In this document: positions 46,094 to 57,353 of the stretch, piece after piece | How positions within the stretch are numbered: the stretch's first letter is position 1 | Layout of the letters: each line of letters opens with the position of its first letter | DNA from: Aquabacter sediminis | GTDB lineage: Bacteria; Pseudomonadota; Alphaproteobacteria; Rhizobiales; Xanthobacteraceae | DNA: 64,000 bases | Direction of reading: 5' to 3' | NCBI RefSeq assembly: GCF_028863665.1 | Contig: NZ_JARBFX010000005.1 | Location: forward strand, 434,001-498,000 | Notes under the pieces: model-generated | Told to the model about the DNA's origin: nothing | The model's input: the letters and a program-made list of their open reading frames with translations, nothing else | Database searches by the model: none | Made by a program: the position numbers and the translations under genes

Positions 46094-47089
46094 TCAGTCC
46101 AGCTTCACGCCGGTGGTCGCCGCCACCTTTTTCCAGCGGGCCACGTCGTCGGAGATCTGGGTGGCGAAGGCGGCAGGCGTGTTGGCGACGGGCTGCGCCC
46201 CCACGTCCAGCAGCTGCTTCTTCACCTCGGGCTTGGCCACGGCCGCAGCGACCGCCTTCTGGAGGGCGTCCACGATGGCCGGCGGAGTGCCGGCGGGGGC
46301 GAGGAGGCCGAACCAGCCGGAGACCTCATAGCCGGGCACCGTCTCGGCCACGGTGGGGATGTCCGGCGTGCCGGGCCAGCGCTGCGCGGTGGTCACCGCC
46401 AGCGCCCGCACCTTGCCAGACTGGATGGCCGCCACCGAGGACGGCAGATTGTCGAAGCCCACCGGAATATGGCCGCCGATCACATCGGTGAGCATGGGCG
46501 CCGCGCCCTTATAGGGCACGTGGGTCATCTTGATGCCCGCCATCATCTGCAGCAATTCCGCGCTCATGTGCGGCGAGCCGCCGGCGCTGGTGGAGCCGTA
46601 ATTGATCTTGCCCGGATCGGCCTTGGCCAGCGCGATCAGCTCGGCCACGGTTTTCGCCGGGAAATCCGGGTTGACGATGATCACATTGGGCGTGCTCGCG
46701 ACCACGGTGACGGGGGCGAAATCCTTCACCGCGTCATAATTGAGATCGGACTTGACCGCCGAATTGATGCCGTGGGTGTTGGCGGTCCCCATGAGCAGCG
46801 TGTAGCCATCCGGCGCCGAGCGGCCCACCGCCGAAGTGCCGATGGCCCCGCCCGCGCCGGGGCGATTGTCCACCACGAAGGGCTGCTTGAAGGTCTCGGC
46901 CAGTTGCTGGGCGATGATGCGGGCGATGATGTCCGTGGTGCCGCCGGCCGGATAGGGCACCACCAGCTTCACCGGCTTGGAGGGATAGGTCTCGGCGGCG
47001 GCCGGCACGGCGGCGAAGGCGGTGAGCGCGAGGCCGGCGGCGAGCGCCGTGCGCAGGATGGCGCGGCGGGGCATGTGGGTGCGATCCAT
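46094..47089 (-). CDS. Bug/TctC-family tricarboxylate-type binding protein
   Basis: 331-aa periplasmic binding protein of the Bug family. Signal peptide RRAILRTALAAGLALTAFAA...AAAE, then the family start YPSKPVKLVVPYPAGGTTDIIAR, the VVDNRPGAGGAIG loop and MTHVPYKGAAPMLTDVIGGH. Bugs normally deliver carboxylates to TctAB permeases, and none lies here. Third gene after an AtuA-like pair on the same strand, so its ligand may be the acid processed by them. Confidence 0.9.
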   Translation of the reverse strand: MDRTHMPRRAILRTALAAGLALTAFAAVPAAAETYPSKPVKLVVPYPAGGTTDIIARIIAQQLAETFKQPFVVDNRPGAGGAIGTSAVGRSAPDGYTLLMGTANTHGINSAVKSDLNYDAVKDFAPVTVVASTPNVIIVNPDFPAKTVAELIALAKADPGKINYGSTSAGGSPHMSAELLQMMAGIKMTHVPYKGAAPMLTDVIGGHIPVGFDNLPSSVAAIQSGKVRALAVTTAQRWPGTPDIPTVAETVPGYEVSGWFGLLAPAGTPPAIVDALQKAVAAAVAKPEVKKQLLDVGAQPVANTPAAFATQISDDVARWKKVAATTGVKLD

Positions 47090-47167
47090 GAGGTTTCTTC
47101 CCGATTGTTTATGAACGAAAGCGCCGGGCTCTTTTGCGGCCCGGTCGCGGAAGCTGGATGGGGCGGC

Positions 47168-47524
47168 TCAGGCGGCGTTCAGGCCCTTCAGGCGGGGCAT
47201 GAGGGCCTCGGGCACTTCGATCTCGAAGCCCAGCACGGCGGCCGAGAGCGCCTTGCCGTAATTGTCCAGCGCCAGGCTGCGGGAGACCCCGCCCCCCAGC
47301 GCCCCGTGGGCGACGAAGTTCAGGGCGTCGATATTATCCACCTCATAGCGCAGCACCTCGCCGGTGATGGCCGCGCCATAGAAGGCCTTGAAGGCTTCCG
47401 CCGTGAGCTGGTCCTTCAGGTGGGGATAGAAATCCGGCTCATAGGCGAAGACAGAGATGTTGGACGTGTTGCCCTTGTCGCCGGAGCGGGCATGGGCGAG
47501 GTGCTGGAGCTTCACGCGCGGCAT
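47168..47524 (-). CDS. AtuA-associated small protein
   Basis: 118-aa protein with the characteristic HARSGDKGNTSNISVFAY start and NFVAHGALGGGVSRSLALDNYGKALS. It corresponds to the small ferredoxin-like-fold domain found C-terminal to, or next to, AtuA (DUF1446) proteins; here it is a separate gene 12 bases downstream. No metal Cys motif, so 'ferredoxin-like' concerns fold only. Probably forms a complex with the AtuA-like protein. Function not known. Confidence 0.85.
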   Translation of the reverse strand: MPRVKLQHLAHARSGDKGNTSNISVFAYEPDFYPHLKDQLTAEAFKAFYGAAITGEVLRYEVDNIDALNFVAHGALGGGVSRSLALDNYGKALSAAVLGFEIEVPEALMPRLKGLNAA

Positions 47525-47536
47525 GGCTGCCTCTCC

Positions 47537-48892
47537 TCAGCTGACGAAATAGGACACGGACGGCGTCACCGCCGTGCGCGGCACGAGGGTGGACCACACG
47601 CCGATCACCTCGCGGGTACGATCCTGGTGGGGCACGCGCTTGCCCGTATGGGCGATGCCCGACACCGCCATGCCGTCCACCTCGCGGCCGACCTTGGCGG
47701 CCTCCTCGCGGGTGCGGGTGCGGGCGGCGACGCGCACCGCGATCTCATAGGGCTCGGGGGCATCGGCCGGGGTCGCTGCGCCATGCACCGCATTGAGGCC
47801 CAGGAAGTCGATGCGCATGTCCTCGGCCTTCAGATCGACGATCTTGAAGCGCTCGGTGAGGATGGTCTTGGCCAATTGCGCCCGCCGCAGCGCGCCGGGG
47901 CCGGCATAGAAGAACATGTCCTCGCCGATAAAGCCCTCGGTGCAGCCCATGGAGACCTTCAGGGTGGGCGTGCGCGGCTTGCCGGTGAGGCCGGTGACGC
48001 GCACCCGGTCGGGGCCCACCTGTTCGAGCTTGGCCTTGGTGAAGTCCACCACCACGTCGGGGGTGATGTAATTGGCGGGGTCGTGCACCTCGTAGAGCAT
48101 CTGCTCCTTGACGGTGGCGAGCGAGACCATGCCGCCCGTGCCCGGCGTCTTGGTGATGACGACGGAGCCGTCCGCCTCCACCTCGGCGATGGGGAAGCCG
48201 AAATTCCACGGCTCGGGCACGTCCTTGAAGCCGGGATCGGTGAAATAGCCGCCCGTCACCTGCGCCCCGCATTCCATCAGATGGCCGATGCCGTTGCCGG
48301 CGCCCAGATGCTCATAGTCATCCGCCGCCCAGCCGAATTCATGCATCATGGGGGCGAGGAACAAGGAAGGGTCCGCCACCCGCCCGGTGAGGACGATCTG
48401 CGCCCCCCGCCGGAGCGCCTCCACGATGGGCTCGGCGCCCTGATAGGCTTCCGCCGAGATCAGCGTATTGCCGAGCGTGGCGGTGGGGGCGCCGTTTTCC
48501 AGGATGGTGTCGGTCAGTTCGATCACCCGCTCGGTGATGAGCGAGCCATTGACGGAGGCCACCTTCACGCCCGTGGCGCCCAGCTCCTGCAGCAGCTCCA
48601 CCACCCGCTGGGCGGCGCCATCCGGATTGATCCAGCCCTGGTTGGAGATGATCTTGGTGCCCCGCTTCAACGCCGCCGGCAGAACGGCGCGCATGCGGTC
48701 ATCCAGATAGGTGTCATAGCCCGGGAAGGTGGGGTCGCGGCGCGCCCGCACCTGGGCGGCGGAGATGGTGGCCTCCGCCATGGTCTCGAAGCACAGATAA
48801 TCCAGATCGCCCCGCTCCGCATTGAGCCGCGCCGGCTCCACCCGATCGCCCCACCAGGCCGAGCCGGAGCCGATCCGCACGGTTTTGGTCAT
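47537..48892 (-). CDS. AtuA-like protein (DUF1446)
   Basis: 451-aa protein of the acyclic terpene utilisation AtuA family (DUF1446). RIGSGSAWWGDRVEPA is the typical N-terminus; AEATISAAQVRAR, VLTGRVADPSLFLAP and GAGNGIGHLMECGAQVTGGYF are conserved stretches. The family was first linked to geraniol/citronellol breakdown in Pseudomonas, but most relatives are of unknown activity in CoA-dependent catabolic clusters. ATG 48892 has GGGAGGA upstream; the longer open frame to 49513 lies in the divergent LysR gene and is not real. A LysR gene diverges from it. Confidence 0.88.
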   Translation of the reverse strand: MTKTVRIGSGSAWWGDRVEPARLNAERGDLDYLCFETMAEATISAAQVRARRDPTFPGYDTYLDDRMRAVLPAALKRGTKIISNQGWINPDGAAQRVVELLQELGATGVKVASVNGSLITERVIELTDTILENGAPTATLGNTLISAEAYQGAEPIVEALRRGAQIVLTGRVADPSLFLAPMMHEFGWAADDYEHLGAGNGIGHLMECGAQVTGGYFTDPGFKDVPEPWNFGFPIAEVEADGSVVITKTPGTGGMVSLATVKEQMLYEVHDPANYITPDVVVDFTKAKLEQVGPDRVRVTGLTGKPRTPTLKVSMGCTEGFIGEDMFFYAGPGALRRAQLAKTILTERFKIVDLKAEDMRIDFLGLNAVHGAATPADAPEPYEIAVRVAARTRTREEAAKVGREVDGMAVSGIAHTGKRVPHQDRTREVIGVWSTLVPRTAVTPSVSYFVS

Positions 48893-48974
48893 GGCTGTCC
48901 TCCCATCGTCATTCTCGTTGCGGCCATTCTTCATCCGGGGTGAAATGGCGCAATGCCTCGCGTGGCAAAGGGGT

Positions 48975-51483: not shown

Positions 51484-51623
51484 GAGGACGGGGGCGGCGT
51501 GGGGGTGACCCGCGCCGCCCTGGTGGGGCGGGATGCAGGGATCAGCGCGTCGCTGACTGGCTGCCCCGGTTGAGGACAGCTGTGCGTTCCATCTAGGTCG
51601 TTGATCTAGCTATGGCGGCCCAT

Positions 51624-51648
51624 AAGCCACAAGTCTCGAGTGTGGCTT
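51624..51648. repeat. Perfect inverted repeat at the left edge of the DUF262-PIN island
   Basis: AAGCCACA (51624-51631) and TGTGGCTT (51641-51648) around a 9-base loop. It sits about 60 bases before the preferred start of the DUF262 gene. It could be an operator, a leader hairpin or an insertion scar. Confidence 0.5.
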
Positions 51649-51708
51649 GCTGGGCGAAGTTCGGCATGCGATGCTCGCATTTCAAATCGATCCGGTCGCG
51701 AGGAACGC

Positions 51709-53337
51709 TTGGACACCCCTCTAAATGCGTCCGCCAGCAACGCTGGCGCGATTTTCGCAAACAACACATTTGAAATACCTCGGTTTCAGAGAGAATATTC
51801 ATGGGGTAGCGATGAGGTGGGAGAATTCTGGTCTGATCTTCAAGGGAGCTTGGAATCAGAATCTTATTTCCTTGGCCTCATCATTTTGACCACGCCAAAA
51901 GATGACGAAGAAGCCGGCCGTAAGCGGGTAGTTGACGGACAGCAAAGAATCCTGACACTGAGTCTCCTTGCCAACGCCATCTATCATGAGGCGATAAGAA
52001 GTGACCGCAAGGCGTTAGCTGATCGTATACGGGCAAGCTTTCTGCGGTCTATTGATTATCACACGGATGAAGAGACGCGCCGTGTAAAGCTTACAGATGA
52101 AGCCGATGATACAACATTTCAGTTAATCCTTGAAACGGGCACTCGACCTACCAATATTCTAGACGAGGCGTCAGTTTCGGCAAAGTTGTCTGACTCTTAC
52201 GACTTGATCGTTCGACGCCTTCGGGACGATTTGCGTGCGGATCCGTTCAAGCGGTTGGGGAAATGGACTGATTTCCTCACCAATAGGTTATATTTCGCGG
52301 TATTTCTCCATCCCAGCGCCGATGCCGCCTATCAAGTGTACGAAGTTATAAACACCCGCGGGCGCGATCTCACAACAGCCGATTTGCTTAAGAACTATAT
52401 TCTGAGTCAATCGGGTGGCGATGAATCTTTCCGATATTCTCAGTGGCAATCAATAGCGAAGCAGTTTTCTACAGAGGGGACAAACAATTTCGTACAGTAC
52501 ATACGCCATGTTGTAACCGTCAAAAGCGGTTACATTCTGCCAAAAGACCTCTACGGGTTCCTTGCTAATCGGAAGCATATGGGTGATCGAGAGCCGCCTC
52601 GGTCGAACGAAATCATGTCGATGTTGGAAAAAAATCTCCCACTCTACATGCAAATGATTGATCCAACAGCGGCGGGTCCAGCTGAGCTTGGTGCGCTTGG
52701 CGTATTTTCATCGCTGAGTAGTCTAGGTGTCTTGACGGTTAGGCCTATACTTTTGGCATGTTCTGAAGTTCAAGATGCGCTGGACGGGATGGAGTGGATA
52801 TTAAAGCTGGTCGTGCGCCGCATTGTCGTAGGAAATCTTGGTACCGGTAACGTTGAGCGAAGGTTGGCCGAGGCTGCAAAAGCAATTAACGACGCTAGAA
52901 GCTGGAAAGTTATGATCGACCAGCTTCAGGACTTAAATCCGTCACGCGAAGACTTCGTTGGTCAGCTCAGGAAGCGATCATTGAACAAAAACGTGCTGAC
53001 ATTTTTGAGGAGATCGATCATTCAGCGGTCGATCACGCCCACCCCGCATGGCTTCCTTCATTTTATATGGATCAAGTCCGCAGAGTTCGATGGTATCGAT
53101 CAAGGTGGAGGTAGTTACTGGGGTTCAACGCTCGGAAATACCTTCATTTCCAGCCTCGAGAAGAGGCCGCGTGCGGCGTTGGACTGGCCTACGTTCAAGA
53201 GTTCCATGCTGTCGACCGGTGCTGATGGCGAGTGGGTTCATAAGCTAAATCACTTGAAGGACTGGGATGCGGGGGCGGTCGAGCAAATGGGTTTCGAGTT
53301 AGCTAGCGAAGCTGGTCGGATCTGGTATGATGATTGA
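51709..53337 (+). CDS. DUF262 protein (GmrS/SspE-type N-terminal domain), HNH absent
   Basis: About 542 aa. The DUF262 domain is unmistakable: FEIPRFQREYSWG, YFLGLIIL, and RVVDGQQRILTLSLL near the N-terminus. In GmrSD and SspE this ParB-like part senses modified DNA and uses NTP, and a DUF1524 HNH domain cuts DNA. Here I find no HxxP or HNH signature in the remaining ~420 residues. TTG 51709 is preceded by GAGGAA; GTG 51640 is an alternative that lies in a hairpin. The gene is clearly AT-richer and differs in codon use from its neighbours, which suggests horizontal origin. It overlaps the PIN gene by 11 bases, so they are translated as a pair. Confidence 0.85.
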   Translation: MDTPLNASASNAGAIFANNTFEIPRFQREYSWGSDEVGEFWSDLQGSLESESYFLGLIILTTPKDDEEAGRKRVVDGQQRILTLSLLANAIYHEAIRSDRKALADRIRASFLRSIDYHTDEETRRVKLTDEADDTTFQLILETGTRPTNILDEASVSAKLSDSYDLIVRRLRDDLRADPFKRLGKWTDFLTNRLYFAVFLHPSADAAYQVYEVINTRGRDLTTADLLKNYILSQSGGDESFRYSQWQSIAKQFSTEGTNNFVQYIRHVVTVKSGYILPKDLYGFLANRKHMGDREPPRSNEIMSMLEKNLPLYMQMIDPTAAGPAELGALGVFSSLSSLGVLTVRPILLACSEVQDALDGMEWILKLVVRRIVVGNLGTGNVERRLAEAAKAINDARSWKVMIDQLQDLNPSREDFVGQLRKRSLNKNVLTFLRRSIIQRSITPTPHGFLHFIWIKSAEFDGIDQGGGSYWGSTLGNTFISSLEKRPRAALDWPTFKSSMLSTGADGEWVHKLNHLKDWDAGAVEQMGFELASEAGRIWYDD

Positions 53338-54136
53338 CGCCTCGGGTGTTGATAATGAATGCGAAATTCAAGTTTGCGAATTGCTCGACCGGAAGGCCGA
53401 GATAAACGCGCTTAAATCTCTCTCTTCGGCCCTCAAGTTTGAGTTGCCAGAGTGCGAGCTTGCAGAAACCGTGATTGCCTTCGATGCGAACGTGTTGCTG
53501 AGGATGAGCAAGCACAGTAGATGTGATGATATCGTAGATTATCTGCGTGCGAAGTTTCCCGGCCGGATTATACTTCCGGGTCAGGTTATCCAAGAGTTTT
53601 GGAATAACCAATTTCTCGGAGTAGAATCAATATCGGCCGCGCTGCAAAAAAAATTTAAAGAACTTAGCGATACAATTGGAGGGTTCGACGATCAATTTGG
53701 CGAATATGCTACCCGATTCAAGGATTTAATGCGTGAGTTTGATGAAGATTATGGTTACATATTCGACGATAATACAGCCAGAAAAACTAAACTGTTTGTT
53801 GATCTTCTTGTCGAGAAGGCTCGTGTTCCTTTCGTGACGCGCTCGCTTCTCTCCGCGTTGGCTGATGTACGGAAGAGGACGAGAACCCCTCCAGGTTTCA
53901 AGGATGGGGGGGATGGGGACTTTTTTGTATGGGCTGACCTGCTTTTAGGCTTAGCCGTGCTAAAAAAAGAAGGTGTAAAATATCGGCGTGTTACGCTCGT
54001 AACTCTCGACAAAAAGATCGACTGGAGTCGAGGTGGTATTCCCCACCCAATCCTGACTGCCGAGGTCCATGCGATTAGCGGCGCCGAATTCGAAACCATC
54101 ACTCTGGAAAATTTGGCAAGGCGACTTTTAGGCTAA
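53327..54136 (+). CDS. PIN-like nuclease coupled to DUF262 protein
   Basis: 269-aa protein of the PIN-like (PIN_8) type. Acidic residues sit in family positions: Asp53 in VIAFDANVLLRM, Glu90 in ILPGQVIQEFW, Asp198 in the PPGFKDGGDGDFFVWADLLLG stretch, Asp204 nearby and Asp228 in VTLDKKIDW. A metal-dependent RNase or DNase is expected. The start ATG lies inside the end of the DUF262 gene. AT-rich like its partner. No antitoxin-like small gene is adjacent, so it is not a standard VapBC pair. Joint action with DUF262 in phage or plasmid defence is the main hypothesis. Confidence 0.82.
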   Translation: MMIDASGVDNECEIQVCELLDRKAEINALKSLSSALKFELPECELAETVIAFDANVLLRMSKHSRCDDIVDYLRAKFPGRIILPGQVIQEFWNNQFLGVESISAALQKKFKELSDTIGGFDDQFGEYATRFKDLMREFDEDYGYIFDDNTARKTKLFVDLLVEKARVPFVTRSLLSALADVRKRTRTPPGFKDGGDGDFFVWADLLLGLAVLKKEGVKYRRVTLVTLDKKIDWSRGGIPHPILTAEVHAISGAEFETITLENLARRLLG

Positions 54137-54232
54137 TTCCCGATAAAACGTCAGCTGGCTTCGTGGGCCGATACGGGCGCGGGAGCTTTACCCCCGCCCC
54201 ACCCGCTAGCCCCCCCCCAAAAAAAATCCCCC

Positions 54233-55210
54233 TCAATCCACCTTCGCCCCCGAAGCCTTCACCACCGCCCCCCATTTGGTGATCTGCGCCGCCACATAGG
54301 CGCGGAAGCTCTCGGGCGTCGAGGGTGGGCAGACGGCGCCCAGGTCCGCGAAACGGGTCTTCACCTCCGGCAGGGCCAGCACCTTTTCCACCTCGGCATT
54401 CATGCGGGTGACGATCTCGGCCGGCGTGCCCTTGGGGGCGACGAGGCCGTTCCAGGCGGTGGCCTCATAGCCGGGCAGGCCGGCTTCCGCGAGGGTGGGC
54501 ACGTCGGGGGCGAGCGGGATGCGTTCGGCGGAGGTGACCCCCAGCGCCCGCAGCCGCCCCTCCTTCACATAGGGCAAAGCGGACTGGGTGGTGTCGAAGA
54601 TCAATTGCACATGGCCGGCAATGACATCGGCGATGGCCGGGGCGCTGCCCTTATAGGGCACATGGGTCATCTTGATGCCGGCCATGGTGGCGAACAACTC
54701 GGCCGCCAGGTGCGTGGACTGGCCCACCCCGGAGGTGGCGAAATTGATCTTGCCCGGCTCGGCCTTCGCCGCCGCGATCAGGTCCTTCACCGTCTTGAAG
54801 GGCGAGGACGTGGGCACCACCAGCATCAGCGGGTTCTCGGTGAGCAGGGCCACCGGCGTGAAGTTGTCGAGGATGTGGTAGGTCAGGTTGGTGAACAGGG
54901 TCATGTTGATGGCATGGGCGGTGGTGGCCACCGCGAAGGTATAGCCATCGGGCGCGGAGCGGGCCGCCGCGTCCATGCCCAGATTCCCGCCCGCCCCGGC
55001 CCGGTTGTCGATGACCACCGGCTGGCCGATGAGGGGGGCCACCTTCTCCATGACGAGCCGCGCCGTAATGTCGGTGGAGCCCCCCGGCGGATAGGGCACG
55101 ATGACCTTCACCGGGCGGCTCGGCCAGGTGTCAGCAAAGGCGATTTCGGGCAGGACGGGGAGGGCGCCGGCGGCGCCGGCGGCGAGCAAAAACGTGCGAC
55201 GGTTGATCAT
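54233..55210 (-). CDS. Bug/TctC-family binding protein, Tat signal
   Basis: 325-aa Bug-type periplasmic binding protein. Twin-Arg signal INRRTFLLAAGAAGALPVLPEIAFA, then WPSRPVKVIVPYPPGGSTDITAR, VIDNRAGAGGNLG and MTHVPYKGSAPAIADVIAGH. ATG 55210 has GGAGGAAAAACCC upstream; the longer frame to 55363 is rejected. Last gene of the thiolase/DUF35/acyl-CoA-synthetase operon. No TctAB permease is present here, as with the other Bug gene at 46 kb. Confidence 0.92.
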   Translation of the reverse strand: MINRRTFLLAAGAAGALPVLPEIAFADTWPSRPVKVIVPYPPGGSTDITARLVMEKVAPLIGQPVVIDNRAGAGGNLGMDAAARSAPDGYTFAVATTAHAINMTLFTNLTYHILDNFTPVALLTENPLMLVVPTSSPFKTVKDLIAAAKAEPGKINFATSGVGQSTHLAAELFATMAGIKMTHVPYKGSAPAIADVIAGHVQLIFDTTQSALPYVKEGRLRALGVTSAERIPLAPDVPTLAEAGLPGYEATAWNGLVAPKGTPAEIVTRMNAEVEKVLALPEVKTRFADLGAVCPPSTPESFRAYVAAQITKWGAVVKASGAKVD

Positions 55211-55259
55211 GGGTTTTTCCTCCGGGAATTGGTCTTGTTCTGTTGGGGCTAAGCCGAGA

Positions 55260-57353
55260 TCACAGGCCCGTTCCGGCCACTGCGAACACCACGGCATCGA
55301 GGGCCGTATCGGCCCCTTCGCCCACCATGAAGGGGTTGATGTCCAGCGAAACGATGCGGTCATCCGCCCGCATGAGCGCGCCCACGGCCACGGCGGCGTC
55401 GCAGTAAGTATCTAGATTCACAGGGATTTCTCCCCGCGTGCCCGCCAGAACCGGGGCGATGCGGAGCCTGGCGAGCGCCTCGCGCACATCCCTCTGGTCG
55501 AAGGGCGGCAGCAGGAGGGCGACGTCGGGCAGCGCCTCCACATATTTCCCCCCCTCTCCCACCACCACGACCGGCCCGAAGACGGTATCTCGGTGTGCTC
55601 CCAGCAACATCTCCCGGCGCCCCCGGACCATGCGGGAGACGATCACTCCATCGAAGGAAGCGTTCGCATTTTCAATGGCTTGGCGGCAGGCGGCGAAGGC
55701 ATTTTCGACCTCTTCCGGGGTGGAAAGGCCGAGATGCACAAGCCCCAGCTCCGACTTGTGCGCCACATCCCGCGAGCACCCCTTGACCGCCACCGGGCCC
55801 TTCAACTCGGCGAGCGCCGCCAGGGCCTCCTTGGGCGTCCGGCAGAGCCGGTGCGGCACCACGGGAATGCCGGAAGTGCGAAGGAAATCAAGGCTTTCCG
55901 CCTCGTTGAGCAGGATCGTCCCGCCCGCGCGGGCCGGCACGTTCGCCACCGGCCCCGCCTGCCGCCGCTCGGCCCGCTCCATCAGCTCGTGATGCCCGAT
56001 CAACTGGCTAAGCGCTTGAATCGCCTCGGCTTCTCCCGTGAAGACCGGAGCGCCATGGGCCTTGAACCGGGCCGCCACCGAGGGCTGGGGGGCCGCCACT
56101 ACCACCGGCTTTCCGGTCGCCTCGGCAAAGGCCGCCGTGTCCCGGGCGAAGGCATCCACATCATAGCCCGCCCCCGCCACGGGCACCCCGACAAAGAACG
56201 CGTCCGCCGCCTTATCCCTTGCGATCACAGGCAAAATTTCGCTGAAGAGGCGGCTGTTGGTGAGCAGGGCGGCGGTGATATCAACCGGGTTCCGGGTCGC
56301 CGCAAAGCTCGGCAGGATGGCCCCCAGCGCCTCCCGCGTCTCCTGCGCCAAGGGCTCCAGGCTCAGCCCCCGGGCGGTCGCCGCATCCGCCGCCAGAACG
56401 CAAGTCGCCCCCGAATTGGAAATGGCCACCAGCCGCCGCCCCTCCGGCTTCCAGCCCTTCAGATAGACCTCCGCCGCCATCACTAAGTCACTGGTATCCT
56501 TGGCCCGCCAGATGCCGTGCTCCTCCAGGAACGCGTCCACCACAGTGTCTTCATTGGCCAAAGCGCCGGTGTGGGAGCGCGCCGCCGCCTGCCCCGCCGC
56601 CGTCCGGCCGGACTTCAGCGCGATCACCGGCACGCCCCGCTTCCGGGCGATGCGGGCGGCCTCGGCGAGGTGCTCGGGGTCGGGAATGCTCTCCAGATAA
56701 AGCAGCAGCAGCTGGACGCCAGGGTCCTCCGCCACCGCCATGGCAAGCTCGCAAACCGTTACGTCACAATCGTTTCCCGTGGCATGGGCATGGCGCACGC
56801 CGATCCCGCGCCCCCGCAGCAGACCATAGGGCACCACGCTCATGGCGCCGCTCTGGCTGACGATGCCCACCGGCCCGTCCTTGGGCTCCGCCTCGATAAA
56901 CATGGTGGAAAAGGAGGCGATGGCGCCGGTGCCGAAATTGGCCAACCCTTGCGAATTTGGCCCCACCACCCGCATGCCCTGCGCCCGCGCCCGCGCCACC
57001 ATGTCCTTCTGGCACGCTACGCCGTCCTCGCCCTCGGTCTCGCCGAAGCCGGAACTCATCATCAAGGCCAGCTTCACCCCGCTCTTGCCGCAGGCATCCA
57101 GCGCCTCCACCGCCGCCGCGCCCGGCACCGCGATGATGGCCATCTCCGGCGCCTCGGGCAGGTCGAGCAGCGAGGGGGAGGTGGCAAGGCCCTGAACTTC
57201 CTTGCGTTTCGGATTGATGGGGTAGATCTTGCCCTGGTATCCAAAGCGAGACAGATAGAGCAGCGGCCGCCCGCCAATCTTGTTGGGATTTTCCGAAGCG
57301 CCGATCACGGCGATGGATCTGGGATTGAGGGCGACATCCAGGCCGCTGCGCAT
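55260..57353 (-). CDS. ADP-forming acyl-CoA synthetase (NDP-forming, fused alpha-beta)
   Basis: 697-aa fused enzyme. The N-terminal CoA-binding domain (SIAVIGASENPNKIGGRPL), two CoA-ligase domains with the phospho-His region (SHTGALANEDTVVDAF), and a C-terminal ATP-grasp (GPVAVKGCSRDVAHKSELG). It forms acyl-CoA from an acid with ATP to ADP, reversible and of acetate/pimeloyl type. ATG 57353 begins MRSGLDVALNPRSIAV. It follows the DUF35 gene by 4 bases. With thiolase-like and DUF35 proteins in the same unit, it probably activates the acid that they handle. Confidence 0.92.
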   Translation of the reverse strand: MRSGLDVALNPRSIAVIGASENPNKIGGRPLLYLSRFGYQGKIYPINPKRKEVQGLATSPSLLDLPEAPEMAIIAVPGAAAVEALDACGKSGVKLALMMSSGFGETEGEDGVACQKDMVARARAQGMRVVGPNSQGLANFGTGAIASFSTMFIEAEPKDGPVGIVSQSGAMSVVPYGLLRGRGIGVRHAHATGNDCDVTVCELAMAVAEDPGVQLLLLYLESIPDPEHLAEAARIARKRGVPVIALKSGRTAAGQAAARSHTGALANEDTVVDAFLEEHGIWRAKDTSDLVMAAEVYLKGWKPEGRRLVAISNSGATCVLAADAATARGLSLEPLAQETREALGAILPSFAATRNPVDITAALLTNSRLFSEILPVIARDKAADAFFVGVPVAGAGYDVDAFARDTAAFAEATGKPVVVAAPQPSVAARFKAHGAPVFTGEAEAIQALSQLIGHHELMERAERRQAGPVANVPARAGGTILLNEAESLDFLRTSGIPVVPHRLCRTPKEALAALAELKGPVAVKGCSRDVAHKSELGLVHLGLSTPEEVENAFAACRQAIENANASFDGVIVSRMVRGRREMLLGAHRDTVFGPVVVVGEGGKYVEALPDVALLLPPFDQRDVREALARLRIAPVLAGTRGEIPVNLDTYCDAAVAVGALMRADDRIVSLDINPFMVGEGADTALDAVVFAVAGTGL

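Follow-up and report, generated by a model that had tools for sequence, protein, structure and literature searches.

A DUF262 protein with a degenerate DUF1524 domain and an overlapping PIN nuclease gene: a probable two-gene anti-phage module in Aquabacter sediminis

Gene content and insertion site

The window, that is, the whole stretch of 64,000 nucleotides of Aquabacter sediminis DNA that was analysed, carries among catabolic genes a cassette with two plus-strand open reading frames, which overlap by 11 bases and encode proteins of 542 and 269 residues; a third gene is absent from it. The features are listed below in window coordinates.

51527..54227, no strand: exchanged cassette, no counterpart in the same-genus genome (Lamassu there); blastn breakpoints against L106
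51709..53337, plus: DUF262 (GmrSD-family) gene, 542 aa, TTG start after AGGAA; homologues begin at the same residue
51751..52401, plus: GmrSD_N / ParB-Srx-like NTPase domain, residues 15-231, with QR, DGQQR and NTRG motifs; Pfam E 2e-32
52945..53328, plus: degenerate DUF1524 (pseudo-HNH), about residues 413-540; hhalign E 4.6e-11, residue counts, DndI/SspE fold match
53327..53337, plus: gene overlap, 11 bases
53327..54136, plus: PIN nuclease gene, 269 aa; Pfam PIN_8 E 2.4e-14, AF2 model with PIN fold
53483..53485, plus: PIN Asp53; 24/24 relatives
53594..53596, plus: PIN Glu90; 24/24 relatives
53918..53920, plus: PIN Asp198; 24/24 relatives
54008..54010, plus: PIN Asp228; 24/24 relatives

The first gene starts at the TTG at 51709 and stops at 53335-53337, in a frame already open from a GTG at 51640. 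The cassette has a GC content of 48.7%, against about 64-70% in the flanking windows and about 67% in the surrounding DNA. Both flanks are 94-96% identical in a genome of another species of the same genus (G312, locus L106), where the DNA between them differs; blastn homology ends at window position 51526 and restarts at 54228. The insertion is real, since the same-genus genome shares both flanks with other DNA between them, and the open reading frames, the GC content and these breakpoints together confirm the low-GC two-gene insert with an 11-base overlap of the preliminary description. No convincing pair of target-site repeats was found bordering the cassette, a promoter and terminator scan of it gave nothing distinctive, and an NCBIfam search returned no match. 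The PIN gene is present in a single copy in the genome.

The gene at 54233-55363 encodes a Bug/TctC-type substrate-binding protein of a strongly expanded family, with 35 matches in this genome and at least 63 in several family relatives. Very long open frames run antisense to real genes at 46469-48943 and elsewhere in the window; such frames are expected in high-GC DNA, and these are probably not genes.

The DUF262 protein and its DUF1524 domain

The first protein matches Pfam GmrSD_N (DUF262) with E 2e-32 and contains the motifs IPRFQREYSW and VVDGQQR, as had been read from the sequence in the preliminary description. The QR and DGQQR motifs are intact in all 26 PIN-linked proteins, and NTRG has one variant letter in a single locus (L031). 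The PADLOC model HEC-06 covers residues 5-430 (E 5.5e-68) and is not matched at full length, the alignment stopping at protein residue 430 and profile position 436/558. Pfam detects no DUF1524 in this protein or in three relatives, and finds it in 7/7 comparators; the earlier reading that no HNH nuclease is recognisable therefore holds by Pfam, but profile and fold comparisons reveal a degenerate DUF1524. Residues of about 387-540 are homologous to DUF1524 with an hhalign probability of 97 and E 4.6e-11 in a single comparison, and the whole-length hhalign comparison gives E 2e-57. The AF2 model (pLDDT 85) superimposes on DndI (9jfl) over its whole length, residues 8-542, with Z 22.4 for 503 residues at an rmsd of 4.2 (VIA), and its residues 219-542 match the C-terminal domain of SspE (7dri) with Z 14.5 (VIA).

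The nuclease residues E-H...N...N are intact in 24/24 outgroup GmrSD proteins and in 0/26 PIN-linked ones. In the window protein the acid is replaced by H451, the catalytic His by F452 and the last Asn by R486, while N477 is kept. Across the PIN-linked proteins, the His column holds F, L, Y or N in 24/26, the remaining two keeping the His but without the acid before it; all 26 retain the Asn of GN and have Arg in place of the last Asn. TgvB loses its activity when the equivalent His or Asn is mutated (PMC11411939), as does Eco94GmrSD on mutation of its D, H or N (PMC4619093); because of these losses in equivalent mutants, the HNH site of the PIN-linked proteins should be catalytically dead, a prediction from residue identities. 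The DUF1524 fold and several of its positions (GNT, RP) nevertheless stay conserved, which suggests a retained role for the domain. The proposal that the PIN protein replaces the HNH nuclease in trans is partly supported and needs correction in that the HNH domain is retained; its catalytic His and last Asn are lost, so that the PIN protein is paired with a pseudo-nuclease. An alignment of the C-terminus with DUF1524, which had been named as evidence against the proposal, is present in the literal sense, but the loss of residues favours a swap of effector.

The PIN protein

The second protein matches Pfam PIN_8 with E 2.4e-14 and a score of 54.3, against a cut-off of 26.1. Asp53, Glu90, Asp198 and Asp228 are invariant in 24/24 relatives, in agreement with the earlier observation that the acidic residues are in place, and the same is true of Asp193, Asp232 and Glu246; Asp204, near Asp198, is Asp in 22 and Glu in 2. 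The AF2 model (pLDDT 85.5) consists of a PIN core and a long helical insert, and most resembles VapC-type PIN proteins, protein-only RNase P and Rrp44, with Z of about 7-8 and 8.2 at best (VIA). A Foldseek search with the model gave no match under 1e-3, a sequence search of the PDB found no relatives, and PADLOC has no model for the protein. These matches, made with a predicted structure, are too weak for the substrate to be deduced or for an RNase to be told from a DNase.

Pairing, distribution and shared ancestry

The PIN alignment, run against 84,980 species genomes, found 25 loci, in 23 of which a DUF262 gene of 39-79% identity lies directly upstream; the two exceptions are a locus cut off by the end of its contig and a fragment of the PIN gene. 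The same arrangement is found at 3/3 plasmid loci, and the recurrence of the pair that the preliminary description had proposed to look for is thereby established. Carriers belong to the Alphaproteobacteria, the Gammaproteobacteria (Pseudomonas/Stutzerimonas) and the Actinomycetota, and the distribution is patchy, with the pair in 4/289 class genomes.

The pairing is near-obligate from the side of the DUF262 gene as well. The three full-length DUF262 matches of at least 51% identity in 278 class genomes all have the PIN gene, and the others, short fragments aside, do not exceed 36%; on plasmids the identity drops from 45% to below 30%, the same gap as in the class genomes, and no near-relative without PIN was found in either set. 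The 17 outgroup loci examined all carry the IEHxxP motif, and their flanks of about 1.5 kb contain no PIN relative. In a tree built on residues 1-385, with the DUF1524 columns excluded, all 26 PIN-linked DUF262 proteins, which share a common ancestry, lie on one side of a branch with support of 100/99, the long outgroup branches leaving the inner order unsure. Pairwise distances of the DUF262 and PIN proteins are correlated over 23 loci (Mantel r 0.70) and over 15 from Alphaproteobacteria (r 0.80), values reached by 0/10000 permutations in each case; the correlation partly reflects shared species history. The two genes are a real unit.

PIN_8 proteins are not general partners of DUF262: in 398 phylum genomes, 16 with a PIN_8 match, DUF262 is upstream in only two, that of the window and one with a protein equal to the Methylobacterium copy (L015), and the remaining PIN_8 proteins, many of them longer, do not adjoin DUF262. 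No viral or phage copies of the module were found. At one locus (L010; G121:C1:1405296-1408107) the PIN gene is broken into two parts that lie about 2 kb from each other; the DUF262 gene there is intact, and a nearby gene resembles an IS1595-type transposase. A Bradyrhizobium MAG carries a PIN fragment (L033:9001-9420, residues 124-263) without DUF262, apparently a relic.

Defence context

At the identical site in the other species, a complete two-gene Lamassu system (L106:3958-6873; LmuA E 9.6e-139, LmuB E 1.7e-234) lies in low-GC DNA between the same flanking genes, one of DUF1254 and one of Bug/TctC type, so that defence cassettes are exchanged at this chromosomal site. No integrase was seen among its open reading frames. 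The occurrence of the pair near defence genes, also raised in the preliminary description, is observed at some of the other loci, where it adjoins a DpnII restriction-modification (RM) system (L006), a type III RM system (L008), a type I RM system (L025), a C5 methyltransferase (L035) or, as discussed below, dnd clusters. A look at the surroundings verified defence genes in only 8 of about 28 loci, a raw count, and most relatives sit outside obvious multi-gene defence islands. The context is defence-like, and the pair is probably an anti-phage unit.

Proposed mechanism and alternatives

The best explanation, to which a probability of about 70% is given, holds that the two genes form an autonomous anti-phage module which descends from DUF262-DUF1524 restriction enzymes of the GmrSD/SspE/DndI family and in which an NTPase sensor of the GmrSD/DndI type with a dead HNH site controls the PIN nuclease in trans. 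The DUF262 protein would recognise incoming DNA or the way in which it is modified, NTP turnover would reshape the protein, and this change of shape would, through physical contact between the two proteins, release or activate the PIN nuclease. Sensing and NTP-driven activation are proposed because in known members of the family an NTPase sensor controls a nuclease domain (PMC11411939, PMC11662687). The PIN protein, made from the overlapping gene and probably translationally coupled, would be the working effector, while the first protein retains the nucleotide-binding ParB/Srx-like sensor domain and the overall architecture of the family, and its dead DUF1524 may persist as a scaffold, be it for binding DNA, for closing the dimer or for docking. 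The PIN nuclease would cut DNA or, more probably, RNA, the latter leading to abortive infection. The fuller version, in which a type IV restriction sensor has been turned into a trigger of RNA-cutting abortive infection, with the killed DNA nuclease as relay or docking surface and the PIN protein as a ribonuclease in trans, is more tentative and falls somewhat short of even odds.

The alternative that survives best shares the module and the sensor with this explanation and differs in the substrate, the PIN protein cutting modified phage DNA in a type IV-like restriction and so literally taking over from the HNH nuclease. The GmrSD lineage does act on DNA (PMC11411939, PMC4619093) and the pseudo-DUF1524 may still bind it, and one PIN fold match, 8wmm_G (PcrIIC1 with Cas9), stands in a DNA complex (VIA); the closest PIN folds, however, act on RNA (VapC, protein-only RNase P, Rrp44, SMG6), albeit with low Z (VIA), and direct DNA cutting is possible but rather unlikely.

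A plain type II toxin-antitoxin pair, in which the DUF262 protein would be no more than the antitoxin to a VapC-like PIN toxin, is clearly less likely. The module does share the PIN fold and the acidic site with VapBC, the nearest folds including VapC, FitB and related PIN nucleases, and its genes overlap with the putative regulator first. Nevertheless, the partner is a large NTPase-like protein of about 540 residues that descends from restriction enzymes, and is not a small antitoxin that binds DNA. Furthermore, at two loci (L008:7142 and L029:7520-7535) the DUF262 gene is frameshifted upstream of an intact PIN gene with its acidic residues, a situation that a free toxin should not tolerate, although this argument is weak because sequencing error or ribosomal slippage may account for the frameshifts.

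It is more improbable still that the module is a phosphorothioate-dependent restriction system that reads DndABCDE marks like SspE or DndI. Its best fold match is DndI, and four loci from Actinomycetota and Alphaproteobacteria (L007, L015, L027, L031) have dnd clusters, differently arranged, no more than about 9 kb from the module. Strong DndC matches are enriched in the module genomes, with 4/26 (three by whole-genome search and Nonomuraea by adjacency) against 7/278 class genomes (Fisher p 0.009), a baseline limited to Alphaproteobacteria. DndC is, however, absent from the window's genome and from most carriers, so that dependence on phosphorothioate as a general rule is rejected for the window and its sensing would be at most a trait of a subset. 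In addition, where SspE/DndI have the phosphorothioate-sensing Tyr before the QR motif, the window protein has Phe, and both the family and the outgroup have Tyr or Phe; two of the dnd clusters (L027, L031) seem, on a reading of their sequences, to have restriction genes of their own, of PLD and SMC type, beyond them. Least probable is a cargo or housekeeping pair with a metabolic role, which the catabolic neighbours in the window might suggest, but against which stand the Lamassu system at the same site, the low GC content, the patchy distribution and the RM and dnd neighbours elsewhere.

Relation to known systems and implications

The first protein resembles those of the GmrSD family (Eco94GmrSD, BrxU, TgvAB) and PADLOC HEC-06 in the QR and DGQQR motifs of DUF262, the helical middle part and the C-terminal DUF1524 fold; HEC-06 is a single-protein system and TgvAB pairs two DUF262 proteins (PMC11411939), whereas the module lacks the HNH catalytic residues and has a separate PIN gene next door. 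DndI and SspE, phosphorothioate-sensing DUF262-DUF1524 nickases, give the best whole-length fold match, but their HNH is active (PMC11662687) and that of the module is predicted to be inactive and is PIN-linked. Closest among published proposals is the ptuXYZ operon (PMC11980606), which likewise combines an HNH-less DUF262 protein with a PIN-like-domain protein. It differs in having a PtuA-like ATPase gene, which the module lacks, and in its third protein, which joins a PIN-like domain to a BECR-fold RNase; PtuX, by its published description, is without the C-terminal domain. DS-5 of DefensePredictor (PMC13092281) also consists of two genes, needs the catalytic activity of its PIN and is not of the toxin-antitoxin type, but the partner of that PIN has a DUF5830 and an AcrIF4-like domain instead of DUF262. 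A pair with a retained, inactivated DUF1524 was not found in the literature searched, which was mainly open-access journal articles.

An annotation based on DUF262 only, such as the HEC-06 call, would cover half of the system and assign it the wrong nuclease. The loss of the HNH site and the presence of the PIN gene fall on the same branch of the family tree, which offers a natural experiment on a change of restriction weapon and, if the proposed module is confirmed, would mean that the DUF262 sensor can control more than one kind of effector.
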